Below, one piece after another: positions 887 to 29,400 of a DNA stretch of 64,000 nucleotides. Position numbers and translations under genes: made by a program. The DNA lies in assembly GCA_964019135.1 (NCBI GenBank), contig OZ025263.1, positions 19,941,123-20,005,122 of the forward strand. The letters are read 5' to 3'. Every line of letters begins with the position of its first letter. Within the stretch, counting starts at the first letter, position 1. The notes under the pieces were generated by a model. It made no database searches, was not told the DNA's origin, and worked only from the letters and a program-made list of their open reading frames with translations. The stretch comes from Arenicola marina. Taxonomy: Eukaryota; Annelida; Polychaeta; Arenicolidae.

Positions 887-1204
887 ATGTCTCTTTACAA
901 GAGGTCAGTGTGTATTACTGGTTTGCCAGATGATGTCGCCATTGCTGAGGTAGAATGCCTTTTCTCCCACATTGGGGATGTAGAACATGTGCTATTTAAA
1001 GGCTCCCCAGACCCTGGTGTCCGTGGTGGGTTCATGGTTAAAGGGGGTGGTGGCTTCATAGGTAGAGGGGGTGGTGGGTTCATGGGTAGAGGGGGTGATG
1101 GGTACATTGGTAGAGAGGGTGGGTTCATGGGTAGAGGGGGTGGTGATTCATGGGTAGAGGGGGTGGTGCGTTCATGGGTAGAGGGGGTGGTGGTTCATGG
1201 ATAG
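887..1204 (+). CDS. Half RRM domain running into an RGG-like repeat (partial or decayed gene)
   Basis: The open frame from the ATG at 887 (A at -3) starts MSLYKRSVCITGLPDD. VCITGLP resembles the RNP2 strand of an RNA-recognition motif, followed by a helix (AIAEVECLFSHIG) and a second strand (VEHVLF). The RNP1 half of the RRM is absent: after about residue 45 the frame enters Gly-Phe-Met-Gly-Arg-Gly-Gly repeats that resemble RGG boxes and belong to the 24-bp minisatellite. The frame closes at 1204 inside the array. RRM plus RGG is a common layout of RNA-binding proteins, so a real gene whose RGG exon expanded is plausible. Alternatively this is one RRM exon with an intronic minisatellite, or a pseudogene. 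The host protein is not recognised. Confidence 0.45.
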   Translation: MSLYKRSVCITGLPDDVAIAEVECLFSHIGDVEHVLFKGSPDPGVRGGFMVKGGGGFIGRGGGGFMGRGGDGYIGREGGFMGRGGGDSWVEGVVRSWVEGVVVHG

Positions 1205-4200
1205 AGAGGGTGGTGGGTTCATTGGTAGAGAGGGTGGGTTCATGGGTAGAGGGGGTGGTGGGTTCATGGGTAGAGGGGGTGGTGGGTTCATGGGTAGAGG
1301 GGTGGTGGGTTCATGGGTAGAGGGGGTGTTGGGTTCATGGGTAGAGGGGGTGGTGGGTTCATGGGTAGAGGGGGTGGTGGGTTCATGGGTAGAGGGGGTG
1401 GTGTGTTCATAGGTAGAGGGGGTGGTGGGTTCATGGTTAGAGGGGGTGGTGGCTTCATAGGTAGAGGGGGTGGTGGGTTCATGGGTAGAGGAGGTGATGG
1501 GTACATTGGTAGAGAGGGTGGGTTCATGGGTAGAGGGGGTGGTGATTCATGGGTAGAGGGGGTGGTGCGTTCATGGGTAGAGGGGGTGGTGGTTCATGGA
1601 TAGAGAGGGTGGTGGGTTCATTGGTAGAGAGGGTGGGTTCATGGGTAGAGGGGGTGGTGGGTTCATGGGTAGAGGGATGGTGGGTTCATGGGTAGAGGGG
1701 TGGTGGGTTCATGGATAGAGGGGTGGGGATTCATGGATACAGAAGGGGGGGGGTGTCATGGGTAGAGGGGTGGTGAGTTTATGGGTAGAGGGGTGGTAGG
1801 TTCATGGGTAGAGGGGTGGTGGGTTTATGGGTAGATGGGGTGGTGGGTTCATGGATAGAGGGGTGGTGGGTTTATGGGTAGAGGGGGTGGTGGGTTCATG
1901 GATAGAGGGGGTGGTGAGTTTATGGGTAGAGGGGTGGTGGGTTCATGGGTAGAGGGCGTGGTGTGTTCATGGGTAGAGGGGGTGGTGGGTTCATGGGTAG
2001 AGGGCGTGGTGTGTACATGGGTAGAGGGGGTGGTGGGTTCATAGGAAGAGGGGGTGGTGCGTTCATGGGTAGAGGGGTGGTGGGTTCATGGGTAGAGGGG
2101 TGGTGGGTTCATGGGTAGAGGGGGTGGTGGGTTCATGGGTAGAGGGGTGGTGGGTTCATGGGTAGAGAGGGTGGGTTCATGGGTAGAGGGGGTGGTGCGT
2201 TCATGGGTAGAGGGGGTGGTGGGTTCATGGGTAGAGGGGTGGTGGGTTCATGGGTAGAGGGGTGGTGGGTTCATGGGTAGAGGGGTGGTGAGTTTATGGG
2301 TAGAGGGGTGGCGGGTTCATGGGTAGAGGGGTGGTGGGTTTATGGGTAGAGGGGGTGGTGGGTTCATGGATAGAGGGGTGGTGGGTTTATGGGTAGAGGG
2401 GGTGGTGGGTTCATGGATAGAGGGGTGGGGATTCATGGATACAGAAGGGGGGGGGTGTCATGGGTAGAGGGGGTGGTGGGTTCATGGGTAGAGGGCGTGG
2501 TGTGTTCGTGGGTAGAGGGCGTGGTGTGTTCGTGGGTAGAGGGGGTGCTGGGTTCATGGGTAGAGAGGGTGGTGGGTTCATGGGTAGAGGGGGTGGTGGG
2601 TTCATGGGTAGAGGGGGTGGTGGGTTCATGGGTAGAGGGGGTGGTGTGTTCATGGGTAGAGGGGGTGCTGGGTTCATGGGTAGAGGGCGTGGTGTGTTCG
2701 TGGGTAGAGGGGGTGCTGGGTTCATGGGTAGAGAGGGTGGTGGGTTCATGGGTAGAGGGGGTGGTGGGTTCATGGGTAGAGGGGGTGGTGGGTTCATGGG
2801 TAGAGAGGGTGGTGGGTTCATGTGTAGAGGGGGTGGTGGGTTCATGGGTAGAGGGGGTGGTGGGTTCATGGGTAGAGGGGGTGGTGGGTTCATGGGTAGA
2901 GGGGGTGGTGGGTTCATGGGTAGAGGGGGTGGGGCGTTCATGGGTAGAGGGGGTGGTGGGTTCATGGGTAGAGGGGGTGGTGGGTTCATGGGTAGAGAGG
3001 GTGGTGGGTTCATGGGTAGAGGGGGTGGTGCGTTCATGGGTAGAGGGGGTGGTGCGTTCATGGGTAGAGGGGGTGGTGGGTTCATGGGTAGAGGGTGTGG
3101 TGTGTTCATGGGTAGAGGGGGTGGTGGGTTCATGGGTAGAGGGGGTGGTGCGTTCATGGGTAGAGGGGGTGGTGGGTTCATTGGTAGAGAGGGTGGGTTC
3201 ATGGGTAGAGGGGGTGGTGGGTTCATGGGTAGAGGGCGTGGTGTGTTCGTGGGTAGAGGGGGTGGTGGGTTCATGGGTAGAGGGGGTGGTGGGTTCATGG
3301 GTAGAGGGGGTGGTGGGTTCATGGGTAGAGGGGGTGGTGGGTTCATGGGTAGAGGGGGTGGTGCGTTCATGGGTAGAGGGGGTGGTGGGTTCATGGGTAG
3401 AGGGGGTGGTGGGTTCATGGGTAGAGGGGGTGGTGGGTTCATGGATAGAGTGGGTGGTGGGTTCATGGGTAGAGGGGGTGGTGGGTTCAAGGGTAGAGAG
3501 GGTGGATTCATGGGTAGAGGGGGTGGGTTCATGGTTAGAGGGTGTGGTGGGTTCATAGGTAGAGGGGGTGGTGGGTTCATGGTTAGAGGGGGTGGTGGCT
3601 TCATAGGTAGAGGGGGTGGTGGGTTCATGGGTAGATGGGGTGATGGGTACATTGGTAGAGAGGGTGGGTTCATGGGTAGAGGGGGTGGTGATTCATGGGT
3701 AGAGGGGGTGGTGCGTTCATGGGTAGAGGGGGTGGTGGTTCATGGATAGAGAGGGTGGTGGGTTCATTGGTAGAGAGGGTGGGTTCATGGGTAGAGGGGG
3801 TGGTGGGTTCATGGGTAGAGGGGGTGGTGGGTTCATGGGTAGAGGGGTGGTGGGTTCATGGGTAGAGGGGGTGTTGGGTTCATGGGTAGAGGGGGTGGTG
3901 GGTTCATGGGTAGAGGGGGTGGTGGGTTCATGGGTAGAGGGGGTGGTGTGTTCATAGGTAGAGGGGGTGGTGGGTTCATGGTTAGAGGGGGTGGTGGCTT
4001 CCTAGGTAGAGGGGGTGGTGGGTTCATGGGTAGAGGGGGTGATGGGTACATTGGTAGAGAGGGTGGGTTCATGGGTAGAGGGGGTGGTGATTCATGGGTA
4101 GAGGGGGTGGTGCGTTCATGGGTAGAGGGGGTGGTGGTTCATGGATAGAGAGGGTGGTGGGTTCATTGGTAGAGAGGGTGGGTTCATGGGTAGAGGGGGT

Positions 4201-5870
4201 GGTGGGTTCATGGGTATAGGTGGTGGTGGGTTTATGGGTAGAGAGGGTGGTGGGTTCATTGGTAGAGAGGGTGGGTTCATGGGTAGAAAGGTTGGTGGGT
4301 TCATGGGTAGAGGGGTGGTGGGTTCATGGGTAGAAGGGTGGTGGGTTCATGGGTAGAGGGGTGGTGAGTTTATGGGTAGAGGGGGTGGTGGGTTCATGGA
4401 TAGAGGGGTGGTGGGTTTATGGGTAGAGGGGGTGATGGGTTCATGGATAGAGGGGTGGTGGGTTCATGGGTAGAGGTGTGGTGGGTTTATGGGTAGAGGT
4501 GGTGGTGGGTTCATGGATAGAGGGGTGGTGGGTTTATGGGTAGAGGGGGTGATTGGTTCATGGATAGAGGGGTGGGGATTCATGGATACAGAAGGGGGGG
4601 GGGTGTCATGGGTAGAGGGGGTGGTGGGTTCATGGGTAGAGGGCGTGGTGTGTTCATGGGTAGAGGGGTGGTGGGTTTATGGGTAGAGAGGGTGGTGGGT
4701 TCATGGGTAGAGGGGTGGTGGGTTCATTGGTAGAGAGGGTGGGTTCATGGGTAGAGGGGTGGTGGGTTCATGGGTAGAGAGGGTGGTGGGTTCATGGGTA
4801 GAGGGGGTGGTGCGTTCATGGGTAGAGGGGGTGGTGGGTTCATGGGTAGAGAGGGTGGTGGGTTCATGGGTAGAGGGAGTGGTGCGTTCATCGGTAGAGG
4901 GGGTGGTGGGTTCATGGGTAGAGAGGGTGGTGGGTTCATGGGTAGAGGTGGTGGTGCGTTCATCGGTAGAGGGGGTGGTGCGTTCATGGGTAGAGGGGGT
5001 GGTGGGTTCATGGGTAGAGAGGGTGGTGGGTTCATGGGTAGAGGGGGTGGTGCGTTCATGGGTAGAGGGGGTGGTGGGTTCATGGGTAGAGGGGGTGGTG
5101 GGTTCATGGGTAGAGAGGGTGGTGTGTTCATGGGTAGAGGGGGTGGTGGGTTCATAGGTAGAGGGTGTGGTGGGTTCATGGGTAGAGGGGGTGGTGGGTT
5201 CATCGGTAGAGGGGGTGGTGGGTTCATGGGTAGAGGGGGTGGTGGGTTCATGGGTAGAGGGGGTGGTGGGTTCATGGGTAGAGGGGGTGGTGGGTTCATG
5301 GGTAGAGGGGGTGGTGGGTTCATGGGTAGAGAGGGTGGTGTGTTCATGGGTAGAGGGGGTGGTGGGTTCATGGGTAGAGGGGGTGGTGGGTTCATAGGTA
5401 GAGGGGGTGGTGGGTTCATGGGTAGAGGGGGTGGTGGGTTCATGGGTAGAGGGGGTGGTGGGTTCATGGGTAGAGGGGGTGGTGGGTTCATGGGTAGAAG
5501 GGTGGTGGGTTCATGGGTAGAAGGGGTGGTGGGTTCATGAGTAGAGGGGGTGGTGGGTTCATGGGTAGAGGGGGTGGTGGGTTCATGGGTGGAGGGGGTG
5601 GTGGGTTCATGGTTAGAGGGGGTGCTGGGTTCATGGGTGGAGGGAGGTGGCTTCATGGGTAGAGGAGGTGGTGGGTTCATGGGTAGAGTGGGTGGTGGGT
5701 TCATGGGTAGGAGGGTGGTGGGTTCATGGGTAGAGGGGGTGGTGGGTTCATGGGTAGAGGGGGTGGTGGGTTCATGGTTAGAGGGGGTGGTGGGTTCATG
5801 GTTAGAGGGGGTGATGGGTTCATGGGTAGAGGGGGTATTGGGTACATGGATAGAGGGGGTGGTTGGTTCA
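1023..5870. repeat. 24-bp G-rich minisatellite, about 200 units
   Basis: The unit reads GGTGGTGGGTTC followed by ATGGGTAGAGGG. Variant units of about 21-23 bp (for example GAGGGGTGG types) shift the phase repeatedly. Because the unit is 8 codons long and lacks stops in several frames, it makes long spurious frames: GFMGRGGG-type and GSWVEGVV-type on the plus strand, and PMNPPPPL-type on the minus strand. Unit variants change amino acids freely in every frame (G to A, M to I, G to E), which argues against protein constraint. Higher-order copies are visible: a distinctive stretch starting near 1052 recurs near 1451, 3598 and 3994, and the GGGGATTCATGGATACAG variant recurs near 1724, 2425 and 4572. 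Confidence 0.95.
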
Positions 5871-6744: not shown

Positions 6745-6901
6745 CTGGCTGTCGGCTGACGCAGAATCACAATGAACTTGGCCTGAGGGACAAACTCTCG
6801 CAGCGTGTGAGCGAGAATGACGCGTGGCTCCGTGAGGTTGCGGTTTGCGGGGACGTTCTGCCACCCAGTGTGGAGCCAGAGGTAGGAGGCCGTCGGGTCG
6901 A
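6745..6901 (-). CDS. Sulfotransferase A exon 4
   Basis: 157 bp, entering in phase 1 and leaving with two bases of a codon. It encodes DPTASYLWLHTGW, then NVPANRNLTEPRVILAH, then FVPQAKFIVILRQPTA. This matches the human CHST15 stretch ASASTMWDNNAW to LIVMLRDPVERLYS, including the start of the 3'-PAPS-binding motif. The acceptor (minus strand) is CTCTAG, preceded by a long C-rich pyrimidine tract (plus-strand G run at about 6905-6945). The donor is CAG/GTACTG. An NLT sequon is present. Confidence 0.85.
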
Positions 6902-9900
6902 CTAGAGGGGAGGGGCGGGGGGCGGGCCCGGGGGGGGGGGTGGAAGGTAGTGGGGTAATAGTACGTAAACAAATAAAAGGCAAACACAATCAAAGAAACG
7001 TTACACACAACTTTTGCAGTGATAGTTTAGCATTATATTGTACACGATTAGGATGGTACAGCCAAATGGCATGAACTGAAATGAAATGAGCTGAAATAAC
7101 AAATAAGTTTCTCTCAAGACAATCTTTGCCTTCTAAACGTAACATACGGCACATCTATATGAATGGCTTAGGAGATAAAATAAAAAAACAAACCAACATG
7201 CTGCAACGCTAAAACCTGCTTATATGGCAGGTATCATACATTTCATAATTTTCTCAATCTAATTTAGCCTTAGTGCACAAGTGGCCTAGAACATCAAGAT
7301 TCATTTCAAACCGCCGAATCCGAGTTGTTTAATTACTGCGTGTCTCTTGTCCATCGTTACCCTGCCAGTCAGGCGTGGGTTCCCCCTGTGGCCTAGTGGT
7401 TAGCGCGTTAGGCTATTCCCCAGTGTGCTCTGCTAGGGCAGCCCAAGCGGCCGGGGCGTGGTTTGAGCCCCAATCCTGCAAATCTGCGTTGGTGCACGAT
7501 AAAGATAGCATGTCTTTTTGCGACAAGAATTTTGGGGTTATTCTCGGAGACATGACTCCACTCAACCTTGAACCTGCCCATTGTCGTGATATGGCAGTTA
7601 AAGCGTCCTACTGACTATAACCGACCTACCAGTCACGTGACGGTGGTAATCTCCCTCTGAGTGCTGCCTTATCCTCTCTGCCGCCACGTCAAACTGGTCT
7701 ATATAGTCTGAGAATGAGGCTGAAACAAAGACAAGGTCAAGGCTATTTTATGTGATCCTTCATGCTGAAAGAAACTCTTATTCATTTTTATTATTTATTC
7801 ATCAAGTCTTTGGTGAAGCTGAAGTGATGATTGAGATGCTTCGTAGACAACCGACTAGCCTACTAGACCCATCAGTACATAGACACCTAACCGACTAGCC
7901 TACTAGGCCCATCGGTACATAGACACCTAACCAAGGGCAACCTGCTAACCGATGACTACCCACTGACATCAGACGACGAACATACGTGTCCGATGACTCA
8001 CTATGGCCCAGTGACCTCCAATAATCTTCTCGTTCATATAGACAGGAACGAATATTTCTTGGTGATATCGGGGGACTTGTGTTGTTGTTTTAAATTAGAT
8101 AATTTGCAATGTACCATGTAATTGGACCTCACTTCACATGTTGCGGAGAGCACATTTTTGTAAACATCCTCGCGACTCTACTTTCTCTGTGTATTTGTAC
8201 TGCTGGGTGACCTTGCACAGCGCCTGGTTGATCTGTGTTGCTCATGTTGTTCGTCAGCTGGTGGGTACGGTCTCCAGTTCGCCAACGGTCCCAGTAGAAG
8301 TTTTCTCCCGGGCCTTCTACGATCTCTGGATGGCGCGTCAGTGCCTGGTGGGGGAGTATACGGTGCATACAGAACAGTGAGGATATGGCAGGGATGGAAG
8401 GGGTGGGCGGACCATGGGGGGAGGAGGTCTGTGTAAAATGCGGTATCGAAATGTCTGTAAAGTTAGTAGAGAAAATCGGTCACATTTGTAATGGCCATTA
8501 TTACAGATACTGGAGGGTGAGTAAGTCCGATTTAAGAATTGAGTGGAAATCATGGGCAAGTAACATGTTACTTCTTCATCCATTATGCACAGCCAAGCGT
8601 AGTATTTTTACGCATATTGACTGAGAGTTTCAGGGATATCATGCGCACTGATGAAGATCGTTGTAAAACAATAGCCGGACTCACCATGTAGACGTCTGTG
8701 GTTCCACTCTTACTGAAACCCAGGGTGAAGACGGACTCACCATGAAGACGTCTGTGGTTCCACTCTTACTGACACCCAAGGTGAAGACGGACTCACCATA
8801 AAGACGTCTGTGGTTCCACTCTTACTGACACCCAGGGCGAAGACGGACTCACCATGAAGACGTCTGTGGTTCCACTCTTACTGACACCCAAGGTGAAGAC
8901 GGACTCACCATGAAGACGTCTGTGGTTCCACTCTTACTGACACCCAGGGTGAAGACGGACTCACCATGAAGACGTCTGTGGTTCCACTCTTACTGACACC
9001 CAGGGTGAAGACGGACTCACCATGAAGACGTCTGTGGTTCCACTCTTACTGACACCCAGGGTGAAGACGGACTCACCATGAAGACGTCTGTGGTTCCACT
9101 CTTACTGACACCCAGGGTGAAGAGGGACTCACCATAAAGACGTCTGTGGTTCCACTCTTACTGACACCTAGGGTGAAGACGGACTCACCATGAAGACGTC
9201 TGTGGTTCCACTCTTACTAACACCCAAGGTGAAGACGGACTCACCATGAAGACGTCTGTGGTTCCACTCTTACTGACACCCAAGGTGAAGACGGTCTCAC
9301 CATGAAGACGTCTGTGGTTCCACTCTTACTGACACCCAGGGTGAAGACGGACTCACCATGAAGACGTCTGTGGTTCCACTCTTACTGACACCCAGGGTGA
9401 AGAGGGACTCACCATGAAGACGTCTGTGGTTCCACTCTTACTAACACCTAGGGTGAAGACGGTCTCACCATGAAGACGTCTGTGGTTCCACTCTTACTGA
9501 CACCCAGGGCGAAGACGGACTCACCATGAAGACGTCTGTGGTTCCACTCTTACTAACACCTAGGGTGAAGACGGTCTCACCATGAAGACGTCTGTGGTTC
9601 CACTCTTACTGACACCCAGGGTGAAGACGGACTCACCATGAAGAGGTCTGTGGTTCCACTCTTACTGACACCCAGGGCGAAGACGGACTCACCATGAAGA
9701 CGTCTGTGGTTCCACTCTTACTGACACCCAAGGTGAAGACGGACTCACCATGAAGACGTCTGTGGTTCCACTCTTACTGACACCCAGGGTGAAGACGGAC
9801 TCACCATGAAGACGTTTGTGGTTCCACTCTTACTGACACCCAGGGTGAAGACGGACTCACCATGAAGACGTCTGTGGTTCCACTCTTACTGACACCCAGG

Positions 9901-11392
9901 GTGAAGACGGACTCACCATGAAGAGGTCTGTGGTTCCACTCTTACTGACACCCAGGGTGAAGACGGACTCACCATGAAGACGTCTGTGGTTCCACTCTTA
10001 CTGACACCCAGGGTGAAGACGGACTCACCATGAAGACGTCTGTGGTTCCACTCTTACTGACACCCAGGGTGAAGACGGACTCACCATGAAGACGTCTGTG
10101 GTTCCACTCTTACTGACACCCAGGGTGAAGACGGACTCACCATGAAGACGTCTGTGGTTCCACTCTTACTGACACCCAGGGTGAAGACTGACTCACCATG
10201 AAGACGTCTGTGGTTCCACTCTTACTGACACCCAAGGTAAAGACGAGGGGCAGACAGCGCATGCGCCACGGGTCACGTGAATCTCGGGAACGTCTCGCGA
10301 AGCCTCGTGGCACTTGTTGCCTGCCTCTAGCCAGGCGCTGAGGTGCTTTGGAGATATTCCACGCTTGGTTTTCCCGATAGGGGTCGCCTTGGGGCAGCCT
10401 GCCCACCCAGCATGGGTTGCGGAAGTTGTCGAGCGGACGTAAAGGACCCTGAAATAATTGTATTACTAGAAGGGCGGATCCAGGATTTTTAAACACAACG
10501 GGGAAAAAAGGGGGTGTTGGGGGGGGGGGGGGGGGGGGTCAAGTTCGGTCTCTAGTATTAACTTATAATGGTATTTTCTGATTAATAGCGACACCGAATC
10601 GCTCAGATGATTCGATTAATCGCTAAAATCGACTCATAACGACATATCGAAAGACGTAGGATAAGTAATTGAATACCTCATGTGAGTACCTCAAATATGT
10701 TTTACTTATAGACATATCTGTAATATGTCATAGAGGCCAAAGTCTCCGAGACTACTGGGGACGCCTCCGACTGATTATTTGGCATAAACCAAGGTAAATA
10801 TTGTGGCTCAGTCAGGGTGACTATTGTGACTAAATCAATGTGATTATTACGATTGTATCTGGGAAAGCTGTGCACTACTTACCCCGATAAGACTCTCTTC
10901 GATTTCCCGCTCAATATCGACATTATAATATATACTAGAAAAGTCCGGTTTCTTCTGTAGTGTTTTCCATATGCGCGCATTGGTTGTGCGTCCACATCTC
11001 TCCTTCACGGTCCTCACACTAAACTGACTCATATTGACTTCCAACGGGCGTCCATATCCTGTCGCTATTGAAGTCGCCTGCGCTGATGACGTCATCTCCG
11101 GTGTCGGTGAAATTAGGTTACTCCTGCATCTTCGCTTCTCGCCGATGTGGTAATTACCCAGTGTTCCATGCTCATCTTCAGCTCGCTGGTCAGCTAACGG
11201 GGCGGATTGGCTGGCGTTTACCATGGCATAAAAGTAGTTGGCATTCGTCGTTGTTAAAACCTCGTCACATTGCCACCACATTTGCTGCACACCGATACAC
11301 CAGCCGCAGTAGAGGACCACCAGACTGCCGACCACCACTGCGGCAACGGTACGCAGCGGACGCGCTCCGCCCACGGTATATCCCTTCTTCAT
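6745..11392 (-). CDS. CHST15-like carbohydrate sulfotransferase, copy A (exons 1-4; 3' part not found)
   Basis: This minus-strand gene has four recognisable exons: 10883-11392, 10197-10448, 8212-8344 and 6745-6901. Phases agree at each junction (0, 0, 1, 2). The protein is a predicted type II Golgi enzyme that would transfer sulfate from PAPS to a glycosaminoglycan; CHST15 itself makes the 6-sulfate on GalNAc-4-sulfate of chondroitin. The 5'-phosphosulfate loop (GVSKSGTTDVF) and the 3'-phosphate region (FIVILRQPTAR) are both present. Exons equivalent to copy B exons 5-6 were not found between 6745 and the window start. They may lie beyond position 1, behind the 24-bp minisatellite, or be lost. 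The donor after exon 4 is intact, so the gene may be complete off-window or may be a truncated duplicate. Confidence 0.7.
7255..7620 (+). mobile_element. tRNA-derived SINE, copy A
   Basis: A tRNA-like head carries an A box (GGCCTAGTGGTTAGCGC, about 7390-7406) and a B box (GTGGTTTGAGCCCC, about 7458-7471), spaced more widely than in a true tRNA by a GC-rich insert. A body reading CACGATAAAGATAGCATG follows. Upstream at 7255-7307 lies a fragment (AATTTAGCC, then GTGCACAAGTGGCCTAGAAC) equal to the 3' tail of the SINE at 44333, so this is probably two SINE pieces side by side. The same arrangement is in block B. Confidence 0.7.
7850..7930 (+). repeat. 40-bp tandem repeat, two units (block A)
   Basis: The unit begins ACCGACTAGCCTACTAGACC and continues CATCGGTACATAGACACCTA. 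There are two copies here against six before the LINE and two after it in block B, so the copy number changed after duplication. Confidence 0.85.
8212..8344 (-). CDS. Sulfotransferase A exon 3
   Basis: 133 bp, entering in phase 0 and leaving one base. The acceptor (minus strand) CCCACCAG is followed by codons for ALTRHPEIVEGPGENFYWDR, which aligns with human RLRLHPEV and EPHWWTRKR just after the PAPS loop. The 3' end is placed at CAAG/GTCACC because this keeps phase with exon 4 and the B copy has the equivalent GTCAGC. That donor is weak. The segment between this exon and exon 4 is about 35 residues shorter than in human CHST15, so a missed small exon is possible. Confidence 0.7.
8678..10245 (-). 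repeat. 56-bp exon/donor minisatellite, 28 exact units (copy A)
   Basis: The array is 1568 bp, exactly 28 x 56, with no length variation. Each unit, read on the minus strand, is the last 49 nt of exon 2 plus the first 7 nt of intron 2. The exonic part starts CGTCTTYACCCTGGGTGTC and encodes TLGVSKSGTTDVFM, the PAPS-binding loop; the intronic part is GTGAGTC. The exon-proximal unit (10197-10245) is the real exon end. The other 27 lie in intron 2, nearly all with an intact GTGAGT-type donor (a few read GTGAGAC). The most distal unit runs into unique intron at about 8677. The 56-nt length is not a multiple of 3, so use of the next donor would shift the frame, and a stop follows. Confidence 0.97.
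10197..10448 (-). CDS. Sulfotransferase A exon 2 (PAPS loop)
   Basis: 252 bp, 84 codons, phase 0 at both ends. The acceptor is TTATTTCAG at about 10449. The exon reads GPLRPLDNFRNPCWVG near its start and CLPLVFTLGVSKSGTTDVFM at its end. The KSGTTD stretch is the conserved 5'-PSB loop of PAPS-dependent sulfotransferases (KCGTTD in human CHST15). The donor is ATG/GTGAGT. An NIS sequon lies in the middle. This exon end is the source of the 56-bp array. Confidence 0.85.
10883..11392 (-). CDS. Sulfotransferase A exon 1 (signal anchor and stem)
   Basis: 170 codons from the ATG at 11392 (G at -3). The frame extends further upstream but has no earlier ATG. Residues 13-35 (LRTVAAVVVGSLVVLYCGW...) form a single membrane anchor after a short basic cytosolic end, as in type II Golgi enzymes. 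A stem follows with NAS and NMS sequons. The exon ends KPDFSSIYYNVDIEREIEES and LIG at donor GGG/GTAAGT, matching the end of copy B exon 1 (FYNVDIDTEINNSLIG). Confidence 0.75.
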
Positions 11393-12867: not shown

Positions 12868-15800
12868 TCAGTATCGAACTGGTCGACGGATCTGTCTTCC
12901 ACTTCTGGTGACAGCTACCACTGGCGTGTCGCCAGCTTCCTCGGCTGCCTCGGCGTGTGTGGAACTGCTGCTGCGACGTTCAGCAGCAGGCTGGAATGCT
13001 ACATCAGGCGCTGAAACGACATCTGTGGGTGTCGCTGTACTGACAAGATCGCGAAAGTCTTCCTTGGTTTGCAGCAAATGCTCGCGATTTCTGCGATACT
13101 GAGCGAGTTGACACAACGCAGGATCTTGTGTCGTGCTGAGAGTCAATCTTTACAGGTTCCCACGTTTTTCCTTTCCGCATCCGCGCATACTCATTAGGCT
13201 TTAGATGTGACAGAGGAATAGTCCCTCTATCGTAATGAGTCTTTTGAGCGGTCTGAGCTTTCTTGAGAGCGCATCGTACGTCGTCAGTGCTGACAGCAGA
13301 TGGGTTAAGGAGGTTAGGATGCACTGGAAGTCTAGCCTTCAACCGCCTTCCCATTAGCATCTGAGCAGGTGAATATTGTCCATTTACAACAGGAGTATTT
13401 CTCAACTCCAACAAGGACATATATGGATCCGATCCACTATGTTCTGCTTTCCTTAACATTTGCTTCACAATCTGCACATTACGTTCAGCTAACCCATTTG
13501 ACCGCGCATACAATGGACTCAAAATAACATGCTAAATATCCCATGATTGTATGAAGTTTACAAATTCTTGGTTTGCATAACATGGACCATTATCAGACAC
13601 AATCACATCAGGGATACCGTGCCTGGCGAATATGAATTTTAAATGCAAAATCACAGTGCTTGACTTGCAGTTGTCTAATTTCGTTAACTCTACAAATTTG
13701 GAATAATTTGTAGCAGGAAGGATTTTCCGTTGTACTTGAACAAATCAGAAGCTACCTTCTCCCACGGACGATTAGGTACATCAAGAGGCATGGGTGGCTG
13801 TTTAGCGTTCTGAGACCGGAATTTGCTACATGTAGGACAATTGATACAACCTCCTCAATTTCTGACGTCATCCCCGGCCAAAACCAAATATCACGAGCAC
13901 GTTGTTTACAATTGACGATGCCCAAATGTGCCTTGTGGATCTTTTTCAACATTGATTTGACGGAATGATCAACTTATTTCCCTTGAACATCAAGTCATCC
14001 AAACATGTGATCTCCTCCCTGAAATCCCAATATGGTCTCAAACAGATTGGTACTGAGGATTTCAGTTCAGGCCACCTTCGACAGGCCATGTGCTTCATCT
14101 GTTGTAAGGTATCGTCACTATCAGTGTCTGAGAGTAATTCACTAAACTTTTCAGGCGATACAGGTAAATAGTTAATCACATTGATCTGGGGCATGTCTGT
14201 CTTTACAGTCTCGGGGTAAATAAGCTCTACTTAACAGATCTGCAACAAACATTGCTTTGCCTTGCTTGTAAATAACACTCATGTTATATGGCAATAACTT
14301 TAGAAGCATCATTTGCAATCTGAGTGGTGCTTGAGCGATTGGTTTTCGACATTCCAATGGCTTATGATCACTTTCTACGATGAAATCACGACCATAAAGA
14401 TATTGGTGAAATTTCTGACAACCGTATACAATGGCAATGAGTTCTTTTTCAATCTGTGCATATTTCGACTGAGCGTCAGACAGAGCTCGACACCCATATG
14501 CAACTGGTCTACCATCCTGGATGATGACAGCACCAAGACCCTTGCTACTGGAATCAACTGACAAAGTCACAGGCTTGGTCACATCATAGTACTTCAGTAC
14601 AGAAGCATTAGTCACAAGATTAACTATATCCTGGAAGCTTTGAGCCTGACTATCTCCCCACGACCATTCAATATCTTGTTTTAAAAGCTCTCTCAGTGAT
14701 ACACTAATTGTAGACAGATTGGGAAGAAATTTAGCTAGATCAGTTACAAATCCCATGAATGTGCGAAGTTCATTTAAACTCGAGGCTGAGGCATTTGCAA
14801 TATAGCCTTCACCCTACTCAAATCAGGCTTCAATCCATTCTCTGACAATGTGTGTCCAACATAGTCTAGTTGAGTCATTTCAAACTCACATTTCTTTGGG
14901 ATAAACTCTAGATTGCTTTCTCTAGCCTTCTCAAGGACTTCATGTAACCTTTCATCATGTTCTTTCGTGTTTTCTGCCCACACTAAGATATCATCAACTA
15001 TGCACTCTACTCCTTCAATCCATCGAACAACTGAGACATCCTTTTCTGGAACACTTCCCCAGCAGAGGAGATTCCGAAAGGTAGACGCTTAAATGAATAC
15101 TTCCAAAGAGTGTACTGAAGGTGAATAGTTTTGTACTCTCCTCATTTCATTGGAGCATCCACTAGCCAGAACTGGCATCCAGTTCGGAGAACAACTTTGC
15201 TTTGGGCATGCGTGAAACAACATCATCTATCGTAGGCATAGGTTGATGTTCCCGCTTAATTGCCTCATTCAGATTTCTTGGATCTATACACCCTTTCACA
15301 ATACCATTTGCCTTTTCAGCAACTACCAAGCTGCTCACCCAGTCTGTAGGCTCATTCTGTGCTACGATTATGCCCCCATCTTCCATGCGTTTTAGCTCAA
15401 CCGTAACTGTATCTCTGAGGGCTATAGGGACTTTCCTACGTGCATGTATAACAGGAGTGAATGACTCCTCAATCTTTATAAAATGCTTACCTTCTAAGCA
15501 GCCAATTCCCCTGAAGACATCAGAGTACTCATCAGACAGATAACTCTTTCGCATGGCATATACTCTCTTTATCAGTCCTATCACTGCACTCGTCTCCCCT
15601 CGTAAAACAGCGGGTACTGGCTTGTCCACAACCTGGAAAGGTGCCTGAACAGATTTGCCTTTGTAGGCTGTGGGAATAAACACTTCTGCATGTGGCATGA
15701 CATGTTCCCCAAAATACCTAACCAAACCAGCTTTGGATTTCTTCACGTGGACAATATGAGTCTCCTTTTGCTTATCAAAGAGGCTTTTAGAGATGACATT

Positions 15801-16310
15801 ACACCTCGCACCTGTATCTATCTCAAGGAGAGGATATAGATTCCCAAGGTTTAACTATACTGACCATGGATTGGCATTCTTCACATTTTCTTCGACTTTG
15901 TCTAATGCACCTATGAATAGCTCTTCACGACTTCCCGCTTCACCATACCCTTCTTGTCTTGAGACAGTGTACTTTCTGCCTGTATTTACGTTCTTGAAGC
16001 TGGAGGTAGTAATGTGTCCATATTGACTTACTATATACTAAGCACCGTTCTTCTGCATAGGCTGACTTGGCAACTCACGCTTGTTCACTTCTGACACCAT
16101 GTGCTGTCTTACCGCGTGTCACGTTCCTGAGGGTCGATATAATAAGTAGGACGCTGACACGAGAGTATCTGACATGAAGAACTTTTATTTGTCCCGCCGC
16201 TCTATTTATGGAGTGGACCCCTGGCGGTCACATTAACATTCATGCACAATCCGCCTGGCGACTGCTCGAATCACAGAATCATAACGCGCGCGGACATTAA
16301 AGTTGCCACA
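12868..16310 (-). mobile_element. Ty3/Gypsy-type LTR retrotransposon, broken fossil
   Basis: A minus-strand pol region with parts in Ty3/Gypsy order: protease (about 15660-15840), reverse transcriptase (about 14770-15540), RNase H (about 14200-14760) and integrase with a C-terminal tail (about 12868-13950). One LTR with a primer-binding-site-like sequence next to it is seen at the 5' end (16102-16310). gag and a matching 3' LTR were not recognised. The coding region is interrupted in roughly half a dozen places, so the element is dead. With only one LTR found its age cannot be dated; the decay suggests it is not recent. Confidence 0.9.
16102..16310 (-). repeat. Probable 5' LTR of the Gypsy-type fossil
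   Basis: About 209 bp with TG...CA ends on the minus strand, a TATA-like stretch (CCATAAATAGAG), a polyadenylation-type AATAAA and, directly after the end, TGGTGTCAGAAGTG, which resembles a tRNA primer-binding site. Confidence 0.65.
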
Positions 16311-17140: not shown

Positions 17141-17491
17141 TTACTTGGGATGCCACACGGAAATGTAGCGTCGGTCACCAAGAAGGTCCGCCAACTGCTC
17201 GTTAAACGGGCGGAAGAAATGGTCGAGGAGTCGTTTGGTTTTTGCCCACATGGGGGCGTACAGGCGGCCTTTGGCGGAGGCGGAGTTGATGACGCCATTG
17301 GCATCCTGGGCGGCATACCAGGAGTCGGACATGGGTGCCAGATCCAGAAACTCGAACATCCGAGTTAGAACGGGCGTCCTTCTGGAGAAATACTCCTCCG
17401 CCATAATGACGAAGAATTGCTCTCGTCTGAAGACTTGAAACCAGTCGACGAGGAAGATGTGGTAGAACGACGCCCGGAAGCCAGATATAGG
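17141..17491 (-). CDS. Sulfotransferase B exon 6 (C-terminal domain and stop)
   Basis: 117 codons including the stop; acceptor GTGTTTCAG, phase 0. It reads PISGFRASFYHIFLVDWFQV, then EQFFVIMAEEYFSRRTPVL, and later APMWAKTKRLLDHFFRPFNE. This aligns through its length with the human CHST15 C-terminus (GLYAVYLLDWLTVF, QFLILRLEDHA, LGPMWPITQKILRDFYSPFN). Confidence 0.9.
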   Translation of the reverse strand, partial: PISGFRASFYHIFLVDWFQVFRREQFFVIMAEEYFSRRTPVLTRMFEFLDLAPMSDSWYAAQDANGVINSASAKGRLYAPMWAKTKRLLDHFFRPFNEQLADLLGDRRYISVWHPK

Positions 17492-20400
17492 CTGAAACAC
17501 AGAAAACAAGAAACGTCGGGGGTCAAAATAAATTCGGCGACAGAATGTTTTTCTTTTTTCTTTAAATAAGTATCGTGTATGGATCTACTTGAACATGTAA
17601 TAAAAATATGTTACTTTACAAACAAAAAGTGTTTTTTTTCAAATTGGCATTAATGCTTTAAAAAATTGTTTTGCAATATTTTGAAACCCCCTTATCAAAC
17701 TTCAAAGTCAACAGTCTTTACCAAACAAACGTCCTGTTAAAGCATAGCGTCATTGTGGGAATAAAAATGAGAAAAAAAAATGTCACCAGACTGACTTGCT
17801 CTATAAGCTCGGCTGTAACCAAAATAGGCTATAAAATAGGCCAAAAATGTAGAATTGTCAAAATTTGGCTCTTCGGCCCATATATGCAATCACTAAATAT
17901 GTTGTGCATTTGGTTGTAACACATCACACACATGCACAATTGGTACAGGAACTATGATTTGATGTGACATAGATGGATATTGGTTGCCATTGGAACCTAA
18001 AAATGCAACAACAAAAATTTAGACAGCAATATTGAATGCGAAACCACCTACCCCCGCCCCAGCAGCCCCGCCCCCCCCCCCGCCTCCCCAAACAAAATGT
18101 AAACAAGCATATCTGTAGCTTTTCCATTCACCTCAGGGTACGACTAGACACATAAAATACAGTGTGTCAATAAACTATTTATAATCTTAAATAGCGGTGC
18201 TTAAAGCCATATATCTAACCTGTAACCGTAAACAACTTGCCATGCACGTTTTATAATATATACATATTCAATTGTTTTCCAGCATTAAGCGTATCCATAT
18301 TTCATATGCAGGCATTTCGTTTACTCACTGAGCGCCGTTGAAGAGTGTCATTGTAAACACAGGAGCGAACAGTGGCGGTCTCCAAACACTGCTGGAAGTT
18401 ACTCAGAAGAGTCATGACAATGGCATGAAAGGATGCTGGATTTCCATCTTGGTGAAACATGTGGTAGTGAGAGTAAAGTCTGAAGAAAACAAAGGAACAC
18501 GAACAGATCATTGTTAGCCGTCAGAAGTGAAACAGTAATTCCACAGAAGTTCGTTTAATTTGAAGGCTTCAGCCTGCGTATGTCATATCGCGACAATGGG
18601 AAGGTGGCAAGAAGCATGTATCGAATATTAACCCTCTACACCTTGCAAAGAAACGAAACTGATGGGATCGTTATCCTGCACAAAATTATAAATTATTAAG
18701 AGTTGATGGTCGGGTTAACTAGTACAAGAGCATTACATCTGCAAACGGCTAAAGGCCATGATACATCTAAAAAGTTGTGTCCCAAATTCAAACATGTTGA
18801 AACTTCGGAAACAATGTTTCGGTCACAAAGTTACCAAAACATTTCAGGATACACCAGTGAAAAGTTTCGGAAATAAAGTTTCGGTCACAAAGTTACCGAA
18901 ACATTGCCAGATGTATCATGAGCTTTAAACCGTACAATATGACCCAAACCCAAACCAATCTAACCCAAGTCCCTGCAATAGTCAATCGTTGCCATGGTGA
19001 CATTGCGCAGAAAAATGACGTCACGCACATACGAATTTTAGTTAGGTGTAATCGACCAGTCTACCTGCACATGTCACGTTTCTTGGCCACGATATATATA
19101 CTGATATGTGTACAGAATGCGACTGGCTCAGAAGGTGTGGGGCCCGCTCAGAAGGTGTGGGGCCCGCAAGCGCTAAACATTTTACTTCGAACGCTGTATG
19201 CGGAATTAAAGAAGAAATGAGGCATGTTAACGCCCAGCACATATGTGAGGTAAGCTTAAATTTGAATCTGAAATTTGAATTTAATTCGTAATAATAGTAG
19301 TAGCGAGTTTTGCATGGCGTTTGGAATTTGATTGACCCTTCATCAATCTGTTCGCTATGGTTACATTGAGTCAGCCCAACTGACATAGAAGAGTACACTC
19401 GATAATAGCCGAACGTGACCCCTGTTTCAAATGTGTCTCTCCGCGACACCGGTGAGGTGTAAATACGGGTCGAAGGACTTCTGTCACTCCATACTCCTGT
19501 AACACTGTAAACGTGTTCAGAACATGTCGACACCCGCCTGCTGGGCGAAAATCTATATTTTATACTGTCGATGTGCGATTTTCTCGCTAATGCTTTCTTT
19601 TTAAACAGAACGATTAACGGCAAATAAATTTAATACCAACAGAGATTTATTTTTATACCCCATTACAGCCCCCGGTATTTTTCTTGTAAAAAGAAGAATT
19701 AAAGCGCCCAACCAATCCAGCGACTATAAGGTAACGTTGGGTTGAGCTGTGCTGCCCTTATAGATTACGTCGCAAGCCATAGTTCAGATAATGCCACAAT
19801 GAGGCGCCACTGTTTGCATGTGCAATATATCCTGAGTATCATTTTGGTTTGGCAAAAAATGACGTATGATAACATATTCTGTAGATAAACTGTTGGTAAG
19901 AAAATGATATTGTCATTAATGTGAAGGAAAAGTTATGCTTAAAGAAATTTATACCAACTCATTAATTATAGCGAGCGTAAGCGAGCTCTTAAGGTAACAT
20001 GCATGCCTTTTCAAAGTCCATTTCAAGCATAGGCTTAGGACTTTCATTTCGCGTAACAGCCCCCATGAGACGTTTTCGGATTCGGAGTAAATATCAGCTG
20101 TACATAAATGTATTCAAGCAAAGAGAGGTCGAAGCCTTTTATGTCATGTCTTTAATAATTAAATCAGCTGTCCCACAAAATTAACGAATAAATTAATCGA
20201 TGTTAACACTGGATGTATACTTCAAATTAAAGTTAATTTATAAGCGACGGGCTAAATGACAATGTCTGTTGCCAAGCAGAGTGCTCTTGGTGACCGCCCA
20301 TCGGCTGCTGTCATAGTGAGTAGTTGTGACGTCAAAATGTTATAAACATGACGTCACAATGGGAGTTCCTAAGCAACCGAATGATATGACAAGCCGCGCT

Positions 20401-23400
20401 AAATATAAGCTGGTACCGCCGCTCAAACTCATACAGGTAAGAGCGGGTGTTAGGTATTGCGCGTAGGTCAAGGTCACGGCATTTCTATCTTGCCCGATAG
20501 GTGACGCACTACTCCCACGTAACTGGTTCCCCTGTGCGGAGATACAGGATACCCTTTTCACTACTCTACTCAGTGTTAACATGAACGAGCGAATCCAGAA
20601 TTTAGATCTTTTGTACGTGAATTTGCGAAAGGCTCTCGTGAAACTGAACATAGAATCAGAAAAGGAGTACAACCACTTGAGACCAAAGCAGTTGCAGGCC
20701 ATTTCGGAGGCCTCAAAGGGAGACCACTCACAACTCTCAAACCGTTTATCCTTTTTTTCGGAGTAGCTGTCAAATATGAAGTAATTATGATGGATTGAGC
20801 GAATATGTATCAGACAATTGAGAAGAGATATGTAATTTAATATATCATATGTATCAAATCTATAATTAAGAATTTTCAATATTTCATTACATAGATTAGG
20901 CATTGAATATTTGCAAGCCCAAGAATATTTTGCTGTATTATATAAATAAAATTAATACACTGTTTTCCTTTCCATACATTACATTTCATTTATATTTATA
21001 TTTAAATGATTTACCAAAAAATATTTTCCATATCAATAAGTACCGGTAGAACTTACACATCTTCAATTTTCACATCATCTTTGGTACTAAAGTGCTGCAT
21101 CAGCGATGAACTGGACCCTGGGCACAATCTCATGGAACACCAAATATTGTTACTGCATGATCAAGCAGGTATTCCTCAAGCCCTATGGATAGATGGATTG
21201 GTTTTTTAATTAGACTACTTAATTGTGTGCAAGCATAAACTGAACTGGTCCAAAATATTTCTTAGGAGAATAGGATTATACATTTTAGTGTAAGCATAGT
21301 TTGTTTTTACAATGTAGTGTAAGTATAGTTTGTCACGATGTAGCATAAGTGTTTATAGATTGATAAATTTAACACATACAGTTCAGTACATGAACTAAAT
21401 ATTAAAGATGGTACAAATAATGGCAAGGGCTGGGGTATCATTTTCTTGGGGAGGGGAGGGGAATTGTCAATAGAATACTGATATTATACAGTGCCTAATA
21501 TCATGTGCTGGTACTTGCAGGTTGTCTAAGTGGCATTTGCATTGCTAAAAATAAAAATAAAATAAAAATGTGTCAAGAGATTTATTTATTTTTTGGGGAG
21601 GCTCTGTCAACCAATCTGAGTGTATATCTGAGCATTTCTAAATGGCATTGCGCACCATTTTCATGCACCAGCATTACTGAAATGTGTGAGACAGGAAAGT
21701 GTTATAAACAAAATTGTGAAGGATCTTCATTTGCGTAAGATATTATGCACCTATATTAAATAATAAAAATTCAGCAGCATCTTAAAGTTGTTTCATGCCC
21801 ACCTAAACAATGTCCAGGATGTCTCTCTGGGGGAGGGGTAATTCTCAGCCCCTGTCATACGCTGCCATAAGGAAAATGTGTCAAAGAGGGGAGTGTTACT
21901 TATTTTCCTCAAACGTTCTATCCAATGAATAATTTTCTTGTGGGGCTGTGTCAACCTATATTAAATATTAAGAATTCTGCAGCATTTCTAAGTGGTATTC
22001 CCAACCATTTCATGCAAGGCCATTAATGAAATATGTCAGAGAGGGGAGTGACAATAATGTTCTTGTGGGGCTGTGTCAACCGATTACAGGGGCTGTTATA
22101 GAAACCTAGTGTATTGAACTTCAATTGTGCAAAATATTATGCATCTATAATAAATATTAAGAACTCTGCAGCATTCCTAAGTGGCATTCCCACCCATTTC
22201 ATGCACCGCCATTAATGAAATATGTCAGAGAGGGGAGAGCTAATAATTTTCTTGTGTGGCTGTGTCAACTGATTACAGGGAATGTTTTAGAAACCTAGTG
22301 TATTGAACTTCAATTGTGCAAAATATTATGCATCTATATTAGTTATTAAGAACTCTGCAGCATTTCTAAGTGGCATTCCCACCCATTTCATGCACCGCCA
22401 TTAATGAAATATGTCAGAGAGGGGAGTGCTAATAATTTTCTTGTGGGGCTGTGTCAAGTGATTACAGAGAATGTTTTAGAAACATAGTGTATTGAACTTC
22501 AATTGTGCAAAATATTATGCATCTATATTAAATATTAAGAACTCTGCAGCATTTCTAAGTGGCATTCCCACCCATTTCATGCACCGCCATTAATGAAATA
22601 TGTCAGAGAGGGGAGTGCTAATAATTTTATTGTGGGGCTGTGCCAACTGATTACAGGGAATGTTGTAGAAACCTAGTGTATTGAACTTCAATTGTGCAAA
22701 ATATTATGCATTTATATTAAATATTAAGAACTCTGCAGCATTTCTAAGTGGCATTCCCACCCATTTCATGCACCGCCATTAGTGAAATATGTCAGAGAGG
22801 GGAGTGCTTATAATTTTCTTGTGGGGCTGTGTCAACTGATTACAGGGAATGTTGTGGAAACCTAGTGTATTGAACTTCAATTGTGCAAAATATTATGCAT
22901 CTATATTAAATATTAAGAACTCTGCAGCATTTCTAAGTGGCATTCCCACCCATTTCATGCACTGCCATTAATGAAATATGTCAGAGAGGGGAGAGCTAAT
23001 ATTTTTTTTGTGGGGCTGTGTCAACTGATTACAGGGACTGTTGTAGAAACCTAGTGTATTTAACTTCAACTATGCAAAATATTATGCACCTATATTAAAT
23101 ATTGAGAACTCTGCAGCATTTTAAAGTTGTGGCATTCCCACCAACACAATGCTTCCCTGGACTGTCACGAACTGATATGACATGGATGCGCAAATGTAGT
23201 ACACAAGTGAGTTTATCCACTTAATCAATGCATATTTATGGCTAATAATCCATACGTATACGTTGGGGAATACGTTTGCCGCCTGACATGTTTGTCTACC
23301 TTCATAATTAGAGAACAGTCTTCACTGACATAACGCCGCGGCCTGGCACCGCTTTAACTGCACACACGAAGGTCAAGGCCGTTAATGGTGGTTAACACCG

Positions 23401-26400: not shown

Positions 26401-29400
26401 ATTGACAATCATTGTCTATATAGTATATTCATATTGTTTAATTACCAATTGTTTGACACAAAAGCACAACAACACTGTTTAAATTTTGTCAAAGGGACTA
26501 GCTTAGCCAGATTCAAATTTGACACATATTTAGTAATCAGGGCCACATACCAACGTGGTTAAGTGGTGCTTTATGGAACATTCAGGTCTTGTCATACTGT
26601 ATCTATGTGACTCAATTTTCTTTGTTTGCAAAGTCATGCTCCCTACTCAGGGTTAACTTCTACCATGTAAAGGATATGTCATATCCTAGAAAGATGTGTG
26701 ATATCTATTCTAAAATGAAAATACGGACATTTAACTTTTCTCTTACTTTCAAGGTTTCATAGTCTAATTTAGTCTAATTTGGTTCAAGTTGAATATTATC
26801 TTGATGGTTCAATTATGGGGCATTATGATATAATGTAACCATTTAGCGAAAATACAGTTATGAATTCCATATTGTTAACATATGAAGTATATCACACAAT
26901 CTGCTATTGACCATTTGTAGTTTTTGCATGTCAGTTTTATTTTATTAATGATTATAGAGCATACTCAGTATTTTATCACTTAACTATCACTTCAATCTGT
27001 GTCTTTATTTGAAGTAAACATACAGGCCTACATTTTCATTTGCTTTGACATGCAGTTTATATATATATCCACCTCAATTACATATTTCTGTCTAAGTAGC
27101 CATCTTGTTGAGTTATGCAGTGTGAATGGATATATGAATGATTATTTTGATCTAGATGAGCAGCACTAGAAATCTGCAATACTTCTTTTAATAGTAGAAC
27201 TTTTTTCCGAAAATAGTTGCGCTCGCCCTATTAGGTTTTATTTATATGACATATTATATATGCTAAGCCATTAGCCTGAGAAATATGCTATGTATCCTTG
27301 AAGAACAATGAAAGATGGCACTAGAATAGTCCACAACTCTTTATACCAGTCATACGTTCTCCAAGATGGTGGATATTTGCAGAGTCGAATAAAAGCGCTC
27401 ACTCTCCCGAAGTAAAAGCGCTGAGGACAACAGCTAAGTACCTGGCTGACGGCTGACGCAGAATCACAATGAACTTGGCCTGAGGGACAAACTCTCGCAG
27501 CGTGTGAGCGAGAATGACGCGTGGCTCCGTGAGGTTGCGGTTTGCGGGGACGTTCTGCCACCCAGTGTGGAGCCAGAGGTAGGAGGCCGTCGGGTCGACT
27601 GGAGGACAGGGGCGGGCGCGGGGGGGGGGGGGGGGGGGGGGCGGGGGGTTAGTAGGGTAATAGTATGTTAACAAAAAAAAAAAAAAACGCAATCAAAGAA
27701 ACATCACACGCAACTTTTGCAGTGACGCTTAGCATTGTATTGTACGCGATTAGGATGTTACAGCAAATGACAAGAACTCAAATGAAATGAGCTAAAATAA
27801 GAAACAATTTTCTCTCAAGACAATCTTTGCCTTGTGACCGTAACGTACGACACATATATATGAATGGCTTAAGAGATAAAATAAAAAATAAATTCCAACG
27901 CTAAGACCTGCTTATATAACAGGTATCATACATTTTAAAATTTTCTCAATCTAATTTAGCCTTAGTGCACAAAAGTGGGCTAGAACATCAAGATTCATTT
28001 CAAACCGCCGAATCCGAGTTGTTTAATTACTGCGTGTCTCGTGTCCATCGTCACCCTGTCAGTCAGGCGTGGGTTCCCCCTGTGGCCTAGTGGGTAGCGC
28101 GTTAGGCTATTCCCCAGTGTGCTCTGCTAGGGCAGCCCAAGCGGCCGGGGCGTGGTTTGAGCCCAACCCGTGCAAATCTGCGTTTGTGCACGATAAAGAT
28201 AGCATGTCTTTTTGCGAACAGATTTTGAGGTTATTCTCGGAGACATGACTCCACTCTACGTTGAACCTGCCATTGTCGTGATATGGCAGTTAAAGCGTCC
28301 TACTGACTATAACCGACCTACCAGTTACGTGACGGTGGTAATCTCCCTCTGAGTGCTGCCTTATCCTCTCTGCCGCCACGTCAAACTGGTCTATATAGTC
28401 TGAGAATGAGGCTGAAACAAAGACAAGGTCAAGGTTATTTCATGTGATCTTTCATGCTGAAGAAAAACACTTATTCATTTTTATTATTTATCCATCAAGT
28501 CTTTGGTGAAGCTGAAGTGATGATTGAGATGATCCGTAGACAACCGACTAGCCTACTAGACCCATCGGTACATAGACACCTAACCGACTAGCCTACTAGA
28601 CCCATCGGTACATAGACACCTAACCGACTAGCCTACTAGACCCATCGGTACATAGACACCTAACCGACTAGCCTACTAGACCCATCGGTACATAGACACC
28701 TAACCGACTAGCCTACTAGACCCATCGGTACATAGACACCTAACCGACTAGCCTACTGGACCCATCGGTACATAGACACCTAACCAAGGGAAACCTGCTA
28801 ACCGGTGACTACCCACTGACATGAGATGACAAACATACGTATCCGATTACTCACTATGGCCCAGTGACCTCCAATAACCTTCTCGTCCATATAGACAGGA
28901 ACGAATGTTTCTTGTGCCGTTGTTTTAAATTATATAATTTGCAATGTACTATGGGATTGCACTTCACTTCACATGTTTGGGAAAAGATATGCATTCCAGC
29001 CTGCCTTTATGGATCTGAAGTGTGGCTTAGCCTCCGAGACAAGCACTTCGTGCAATTAGAAAAGTTACAAAAATATGCTGCCAAATTGATTCAGGGCTTC
29101 CACGTTAGAACCCATGATGAAATTGTACGCTCTACACTAGGTTGGTTGACGATTAAATCTCGCGTATTTAAGAATAAAATAATGTTTCTGCATAAGTTAT
29201 ACTCTATGCCAACATCGTGCATAGCTAAGCAATTGTTTTTGTCAAGGTTAACTGAATTTATACTATGTAAACAATTCCGCAAGGAGGGTTTTTTGCCCAG
29301 CGTATGGACAATTTTAAAATGTTTTAGTCTTACGGATTTACTCATGAATTACTTCTACGGTATGGAATACCCTACCAAACAAACGTGGCGTAACACTATC

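Follow-up and report, generated by a model that had tools for sequence, protein, structure and literature searches.

The window analysed here is a stretch of 64,000 nt from the polychaete Arenicola marina (GCA_964019135.1, contig OZ025263.1, positions 19,941,123 to 20,005,122 of the forward strand; positions below count from its first base). Within it, two predicted sulfotransferase genes, A and B, each carry a minisatellite whose 56-bp unit straddles the junction of exon 2 and intron 2. Every copy thus contains the end of an exon followed by a 5′ splice donor. The reading preferred here, at a probability of roughly 0.7, is that the minisatellite was seeded by a single junction-spanning duplication and has been tolerated as the 5′-most copy rebuilds the exon end together with its donor. 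An initial annotation of the window had described the array of gene B; the second array, in gene A, is absent from that account, and the array-bearing gene is here corrected to the minus strand.

Array B (8678–10245, minus strand) is exactly 28 × 56 bp at the exon 2/intron 2 junction of gene B, with no indels; cut in register, 28/28 units are 56 nt long. Tandem Repeats Finder (TRF), run on the window, reports 8676–10245 with a period of 56, 28.0 copies, 96 % matches and 0 % indels. Array A (31087–31814, minus strand) comprises 13 × 56 bp at the corresponding junction of its paralogue, gene A. In both arrays the unit is made up of the final 49 nt of exon 2 and the first 7 nt of intron 2, the minus-strand consensus being CGTCTTCACCCTGGGTGTCAGTAAGAGTGGAACCACAGACGTCTTCATG followed by GTGAGTC. 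Unit 1 of array B (10245–10190) is predicted to be the real exon end and donor; unit 1 of array A lies at 31814–31759. The length and composition of array B given by the initial annotation both hold, and the paralogue has the identical junction. Minisatellites, or variable number tandem repeats, are head-to-tail arrays with units of roughly 10–100 bp, and the arrays fit this definition at 56 bp × 28 and × 13 with no indels. A 36-base piece of the unit gave no exact match in the viral_contigs and genome_contigs collections; as these consist of viral and prokaryote DNA, the result carries little weight here.

Units of array B end in GTGAGTC in 25/28 cases and in GTGAGAC in 3/28 (units 12, 14 and 17), so that the 27 extra donors comprise 24 GTGAGT and 3 GTGAGA sites. 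The opening of intron 2 by 27 extra consensus-type donors, as first described, is therefore right as to their presence, with the qualification that three of them are not GTGAGT. In array A the donor is GTGAGT in 13/13 units. The 41 units of both arrays fall into 25 distinct types, a diversity that stutter or collapse would hardly generate. Near-identical unit arrays are hard to assemble, and the copy number or even the whole array could in principle be an assembly error. However, two loci whose flanking introns are about 14 % apart share the unit in different number, and an artefact is accordingly considered very unlikely.

Exon 2 was extended to each donor in turn and then joined to exons 3 and 4. 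With donor 1 the frame is open in both genes. With every other donor (27/27 in B, 12/12 in A) a stop is met 57–60 nt past the normal exon end. Counting on from donor 1, every third donor (4, 7, 10, …) preserves the phase, because 3 × 56 is divisible by 3, and still meets the stop. The initial annotation had argued that donor 1 must be chosen because 56 is not a multiple of 3. The need for donor 1 stands, and more strongly than was argued, as 39/39 other donors lead to a premature stop; the argument from frame was incomplete, since every third donor keeps the phase. Use of the extra donors would thus be unproductive, and under the 50-nt rule for nonsense-mediated decay, messages from any of them should be open to that pathway. 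A controllable frameshift yielding a second full protein, as had also been suggested, is contradicted, every alternative donor truncating the product soon past the motif of the 3′-phosphoadenosine 5′-phosphosulfate (PAPS) loop.

The founding event would have been one 56-bp tandem duplication with its left edge in exon 2 and its right edge 7 nt into intron 2. It could have used a 2-bp CG common to both edges. This CG stands after the exonic CTGCCCCT and again after the last intronic GTGAGTC, which leaves the placement of the unit edges uncertain by 2 bp. Unit edges are identical in the two arrays, each array being preceded by CTGCCCCT and followed by CGGCTATTGTTTTACAACG. After such a duplication the 5′-most copy would always restore an intact exon end and donor and the downstream copies would become intron, so that added copies would merely lengthen intron 2. 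Growth would then proceed by unequal exchange, units being added or removed with the protein untouched while splicing keeps to donor 1. Repeat expansion looks like a local habit, given that three other, unrelated arrays of at least 10 copies and a unit of at least 15 bp are found in the window (8932/64000 bp in total with arrays A and B).

Under this reading both genes would work, donor 1 being spliced to exon 3 and the rest of the array discarded as the start of intron 2; judged from genomic DNA, this is indicated by the open frame and the slower-changing exons. Donor 1 probably wins, as exon definition would favour the 252-nt exon that it delimits (1764 nt with donor 28) and as it is transcribed first.

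Units also appear to pass between the neighbouring paralogues, by gene conversion or unequal crossing-over, as the net divergence of the arrays is near zero. Exons 2–4 of A and B are 94–99 % identical and differ at 24/542 sites (4.4 %), as against 118/829 sites (14.2 %) in the aligned parts of introns 1–4 with gap columns set aside (Fisher P = 1.2e-9). The first exons are only 31 % identical (tblastn E 2.6e-15). Homology between the genes runs in pieces, introns included, from about 10733/32264 to 6270/19690 (B/A), which suggests that a segment with exons 2–4 was copied or converted long after the first exons parted. Across units 2 onward (27 in B, 12 in A) there are no fixed differences between the arrays over 56 positions, as expected of a homogenised minisatellite when set against about 14 % divergence of the aligned introns. 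With independent sites, the chance of this is 1.9e-4 at 14.2 % divergence and 0.08 at the exon rate of 4.4 %. Net array divergence is 0.14 % over all units (permutation P 0.044) and 0.08 % without the first units (permutation P 0.147).

Shared variation points the same way. Five variants are common to both arrays, including a linked pair (positions 13 and 19) in units B13, B15 and A8, and the sequences of three A units recur unchanged in eight B units. In the flanks adjoining the arrays, 1/50 aligned columns differ on each side, as against 89/669 farther out (Fisher P = 3.6e-4, a contrast tested after being seen); such likeness near the arrays is what a conversion tract would leave. From these comparisons, exchange of units between arrays A and B appears the best explanation of their likeness. 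Selection on the units is an alternative, to which the variant pattern lends weak support.

The divergence figures also bear on whether these are dying gene copies, in which the junction would simply be unconstrained. Gene B is visible only to exon 4, and the ratio of non-synonymous to synonymous divergence (dN/dS) over exons 2–4 is about 0.5 (dN 0.037, dS 0.076), borderline below 1 at P = 0.054. Yet the six predicted exons of A and the four of B contain no stop or frameshift, and the divergence of exons 2–4 is roughly a third of that in the aligned parts of the introns, a contrast to which conversion could add. Decay of both copies is thus highly improbable.

Several observations weigh against the reading of a tolerated, freely exchanging minisatellite. 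The borderline dN/dS is joined by an exon 4 with no synonymous differences in 39 sites, so that the lower divergence of the exons need not be due to selection alone and conversion may contribute. Over all units there is slight differentiation between the arrays, and exchange is therefore incomplete. Among the 39 interior units no invariant run is longer than ATGGTGAG, which is the donor (P 0.09–0.10). Recurrent array variants are mostly synonymous (5/8 types) and singletons are not (1/10; Fisher P = 0.043), in a contrast over all 41 units that was sorted by eye and tested after being seen, with small numbers. Plain neutrality does not predict this contrast, which is weak; it is what one would expect had old units at one time occupied position 1. 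A last objection comes from donor choice. In human DOK7, the intron-proximal of two donors, which is also the stronger, is preferred, and SRSF1 shifts the choice towards it (PMC5585400). In a minigene with the stronger donor at both positions, suppression of the upstream donor is weakened (PMC5585400). A closest-to-acceptor rule would favour the late donors here and kill the message; the outcome at donor 1 is therefore not to be taken for granted.

Whether the extra donors themselves carry a function was approached through constraint and RNA structure. In the 39 interior units GTGAG has 0/5 variable positions, compared with 20/56 overall (P 0.10), and ATG|GTGAGT has 1/9 (P 0.09). The invariance of the donor core is a hint of constraint and is not significant. 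Coding-type selection on the interior units showed no clear excess in a count over unit positions 2–49, with position 1 and the first units set aside: 6 synonymous and 11 non-synonymous variant types were found, against 34:110 possible single changes (16:32 with transitions only). In local folds of 240 nt the mean unpaired probability is 0.35–0.56 for all donors except donor 1 of A, the least exposed at 0.16; donor 1 of B stands at 0.48. In folds of the whole arrays with flanks most donors lie at 0.38–0.50, donor 1 at 0.45 (B) and 0.39 (A), and the last donor lowest at 0.22 (B) and 0.15 (A). One-copy versions expose the donor at 0.48 (B) and 0.20 (A). The idea that RNA structure singles out donor 1 was rejected, as predicted folding exposes it no more than the others.

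A splicing rheostat would give the array a purpose: the extra donors would hold U1 small nuclear ribonucleoprotein (U1 snRNP) and divert transcripts to decay-prone poison isoforms, unit number setting the enzyme dose. The early stops at all extra donors are those of a poison switch in both genes, the longest invariant run of the interior units is the donor, and the array is present in both paralogues. Additionally, when the window is scored with a position weight matrix of human-type frequencies, 41 minus-strand sites reach a donor score of at least 6.2, and 37 of these fall in the arrays. Against this stand the non-significance of donor invariance, a twofold difference in copy number between the paralogues and the lack of ordered donor exposure in RNA folding, and a rheostat seems possible but rather unlikely. 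The form in which it would be a heritable dose dial, each added donor giving more poison-spliced transcripts and less sulfotransferase, with unit exchange resetting both dials together, is more doubtful still. Regulatory roles as U1 decoys or in sharper splicing, raised in the initial annotation, are likewise unsupported, since folding, donor invariance and the copy-number difference (28 against 13) do not favour them.

Parts of the array might also be spliced stepwise, the units serving as very short alternative exons or as points of recursive splicing. TGTCAG occupies positions 16–21 of the consensus unit, which places CAG 28 nt before the donor, and 11 of the 17 bases scored ahead of TGTCAG are pyrimidines. 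The tract before the AG nevertheless ends in GGGTG, and the 28-nt piece opens with TAA and has a length that 3 does not divide, which makes stepwise splicing scarcely credible. No function is shown for the extra donors, no regulatory role is needed, and under the junction-spanning minisatellite reading they are probably harmless DNA, although they confront the splicing machinery with an exceptionally difficult choice among near-identical donors.

Exon borders of both genes, all on the minus strand, were predicted from open frame, consensus splice sites and agreement between the paralogues. Gene A has six predicted exons with GT/AG intron borders, encoding 519 aa with no internal stops: exon 1 at 49329–49844, exon 2 at 31766–32017 (252 nt), exon 3 at 30372–30504, exon 4 at 27442–27598, exon 5 at 18329–18479 and exon 6, with the stop codon, at 17141–17491. 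The assignment of exon 1 to gene A, 17 kb away, is tentative. Only exons 1–4 of gene B lie within the window. Exon 1 (10883–11392) appears by eye to encode a hydrophobic N-terminal stretch; exon 2 (10197–10448; 252 nt, phase 0 at both ends) ends in PAPS-loop-like coding sequence (GVSKSGTTDVFM), and its join to exon 3 (8212–8344) leaves the frame open; exon 4 is at 6745–6901. No match of exon 6 of gene A that could belong to gene B was found elsewhere in the 64-kb window, and the later exons of gene B are thus either beyond base 1 or missing. A tblastn search of the window with exon 2 revealed no third copy without an array.

Exons 2–6 of gene A, joined by hand, score 31.6 bits for PF13469 (Sulfotransfer_3; cut-off 27) and 29 bits for PF00685 (Sulfotransfer_1; cut-off 22); one junction residue of this joined protein differs from the computed six-exon model. 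Pieces of gene A scanned separately stay under the Pfam cut-offs. The best solved relatives of the gene A protein by sequence are heparan sulfate (HS) 3-O-sulfotransferases, among them 3bd9 (HS 3-O-sulfotransferase 5; E 2.6e-6). The 3-O-sulfotransferases align GVRKGGT at GVSKSGTTD of gene A, which we take to be the 5′ PAPS-binding loop; this agreement is weak by itself. Judging by these matches the array-bearing genes are probably sulfotransferase genes, and probably membrane-anchored. The sulfotransferase exon with a PAPS-loop-like motif proposed earlier is thus supported.

Further repeats and a mobile element lie in and around the two genes. Downstream of exon 4 of gene B a G-rich 24-bp unit is repeated about 205 times (1023–5870), and in presumptive intron 1 of gene A a 15-bp unit, GTTGGCTATTGCTGT, is repeated about 80 times (46447–47647). 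A 40-bp unit occurs in intron 3 of both genes, at 7849–7932 (about twice), 28542–28785 (about six times) and 30031–30114 (about twice). Intron 3 of gene A also contains a plus-strand open frame of 354 aa (28825–29889) with no Pfam match; its start sequence recurs from about 30154, and both copies match one stretch of gene B near 7850–8150. The arrays at 38224–38806 and 42440–42588, some 4 kb apart, have units of about 41 bp that look related by eye, and at 21956–23142 a 189-bp unit is repeated 6.3 times (94 % matches). Retrotransposon remains lie between genes A and B (13004–15854, minus strand). Of three pieces scanned, one (15165–15854) gave no match, and the other two yielded reverse transcriptase RNase H (PF17919 and PF17917) and integrase core (PF00665) domains.

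Related arrangements are known in part. Intronic minisatellites are described from earthworm metallothionein genes, whose intron 1 carries repeats (PMC12783039). Shared with Arenicola are tandem units of minisatellite length within an intron and the setting in tandem gene duplicates with differing repeats, whereas here the unit is an exon end plus donor and each copy a candidate splice site (PMC12783039). For a potato RNA-dependent RNA polymerase (RdRp) gene, intron gain by tandem duplication is reported under the Rogers model (PMC4974935). There as here a tandem duplication crosses from exon to intron, or from intron to exon, and takes splicing signals with it; one duplication across an acceptor made a new intron in potato, in contrast to 28 and 13 copies across a donor that lengthen an existing intron (PMC4974935). 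Intron gain by tandem duplication was rejected for the present arrays, as the gene models share the exon 2/exon 3 junction and the array would merely lengthen intron 2. Zhu and Niu (2013), as cited in PMC4974935, are said to have described fission-yeast genes in which a 24-bp exonic AGGT segment is repeated several times in tandem. Several tandem copies of an exon piece with splice signals would be removed as intron in both systems, the fission-yeast intron running across four or two exonic duplicates and the Arenicola arrays repeating an existing donor junction in far more copies. As in DOK7, the choice among nearby donors is one between a working and a truncated protein; the two different DOK7 donors lie 11 nt apart under SRSF1 control, in contrast to 28 and 13 near-identical donors spaced at 56 nt (PMC5585400).

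Junction-spanning tandem duplications (PMC4974935) and intronic minisatellites in tandem genes (PMC12783039) are already known. Among the matches listed from open-licence papers, no high-copy minisatellite with a unit of exon end plus donor was found, which is not proof of absence.

The arrays indicate why repeats can occupy a splice junction: a duplication that spans the donor keeps the exon by construction. They also amount to a natural experiment on donor choice: among 28 near-identical 5′ splice sites, 56 nt apart, the most upstream is the only one to leave the protein open, and the neighbouring 13-unit array offers a matched comparison. Rules of site strength, acceptor proximity, exon definition and transcription order predict different outcomes at these arrays.

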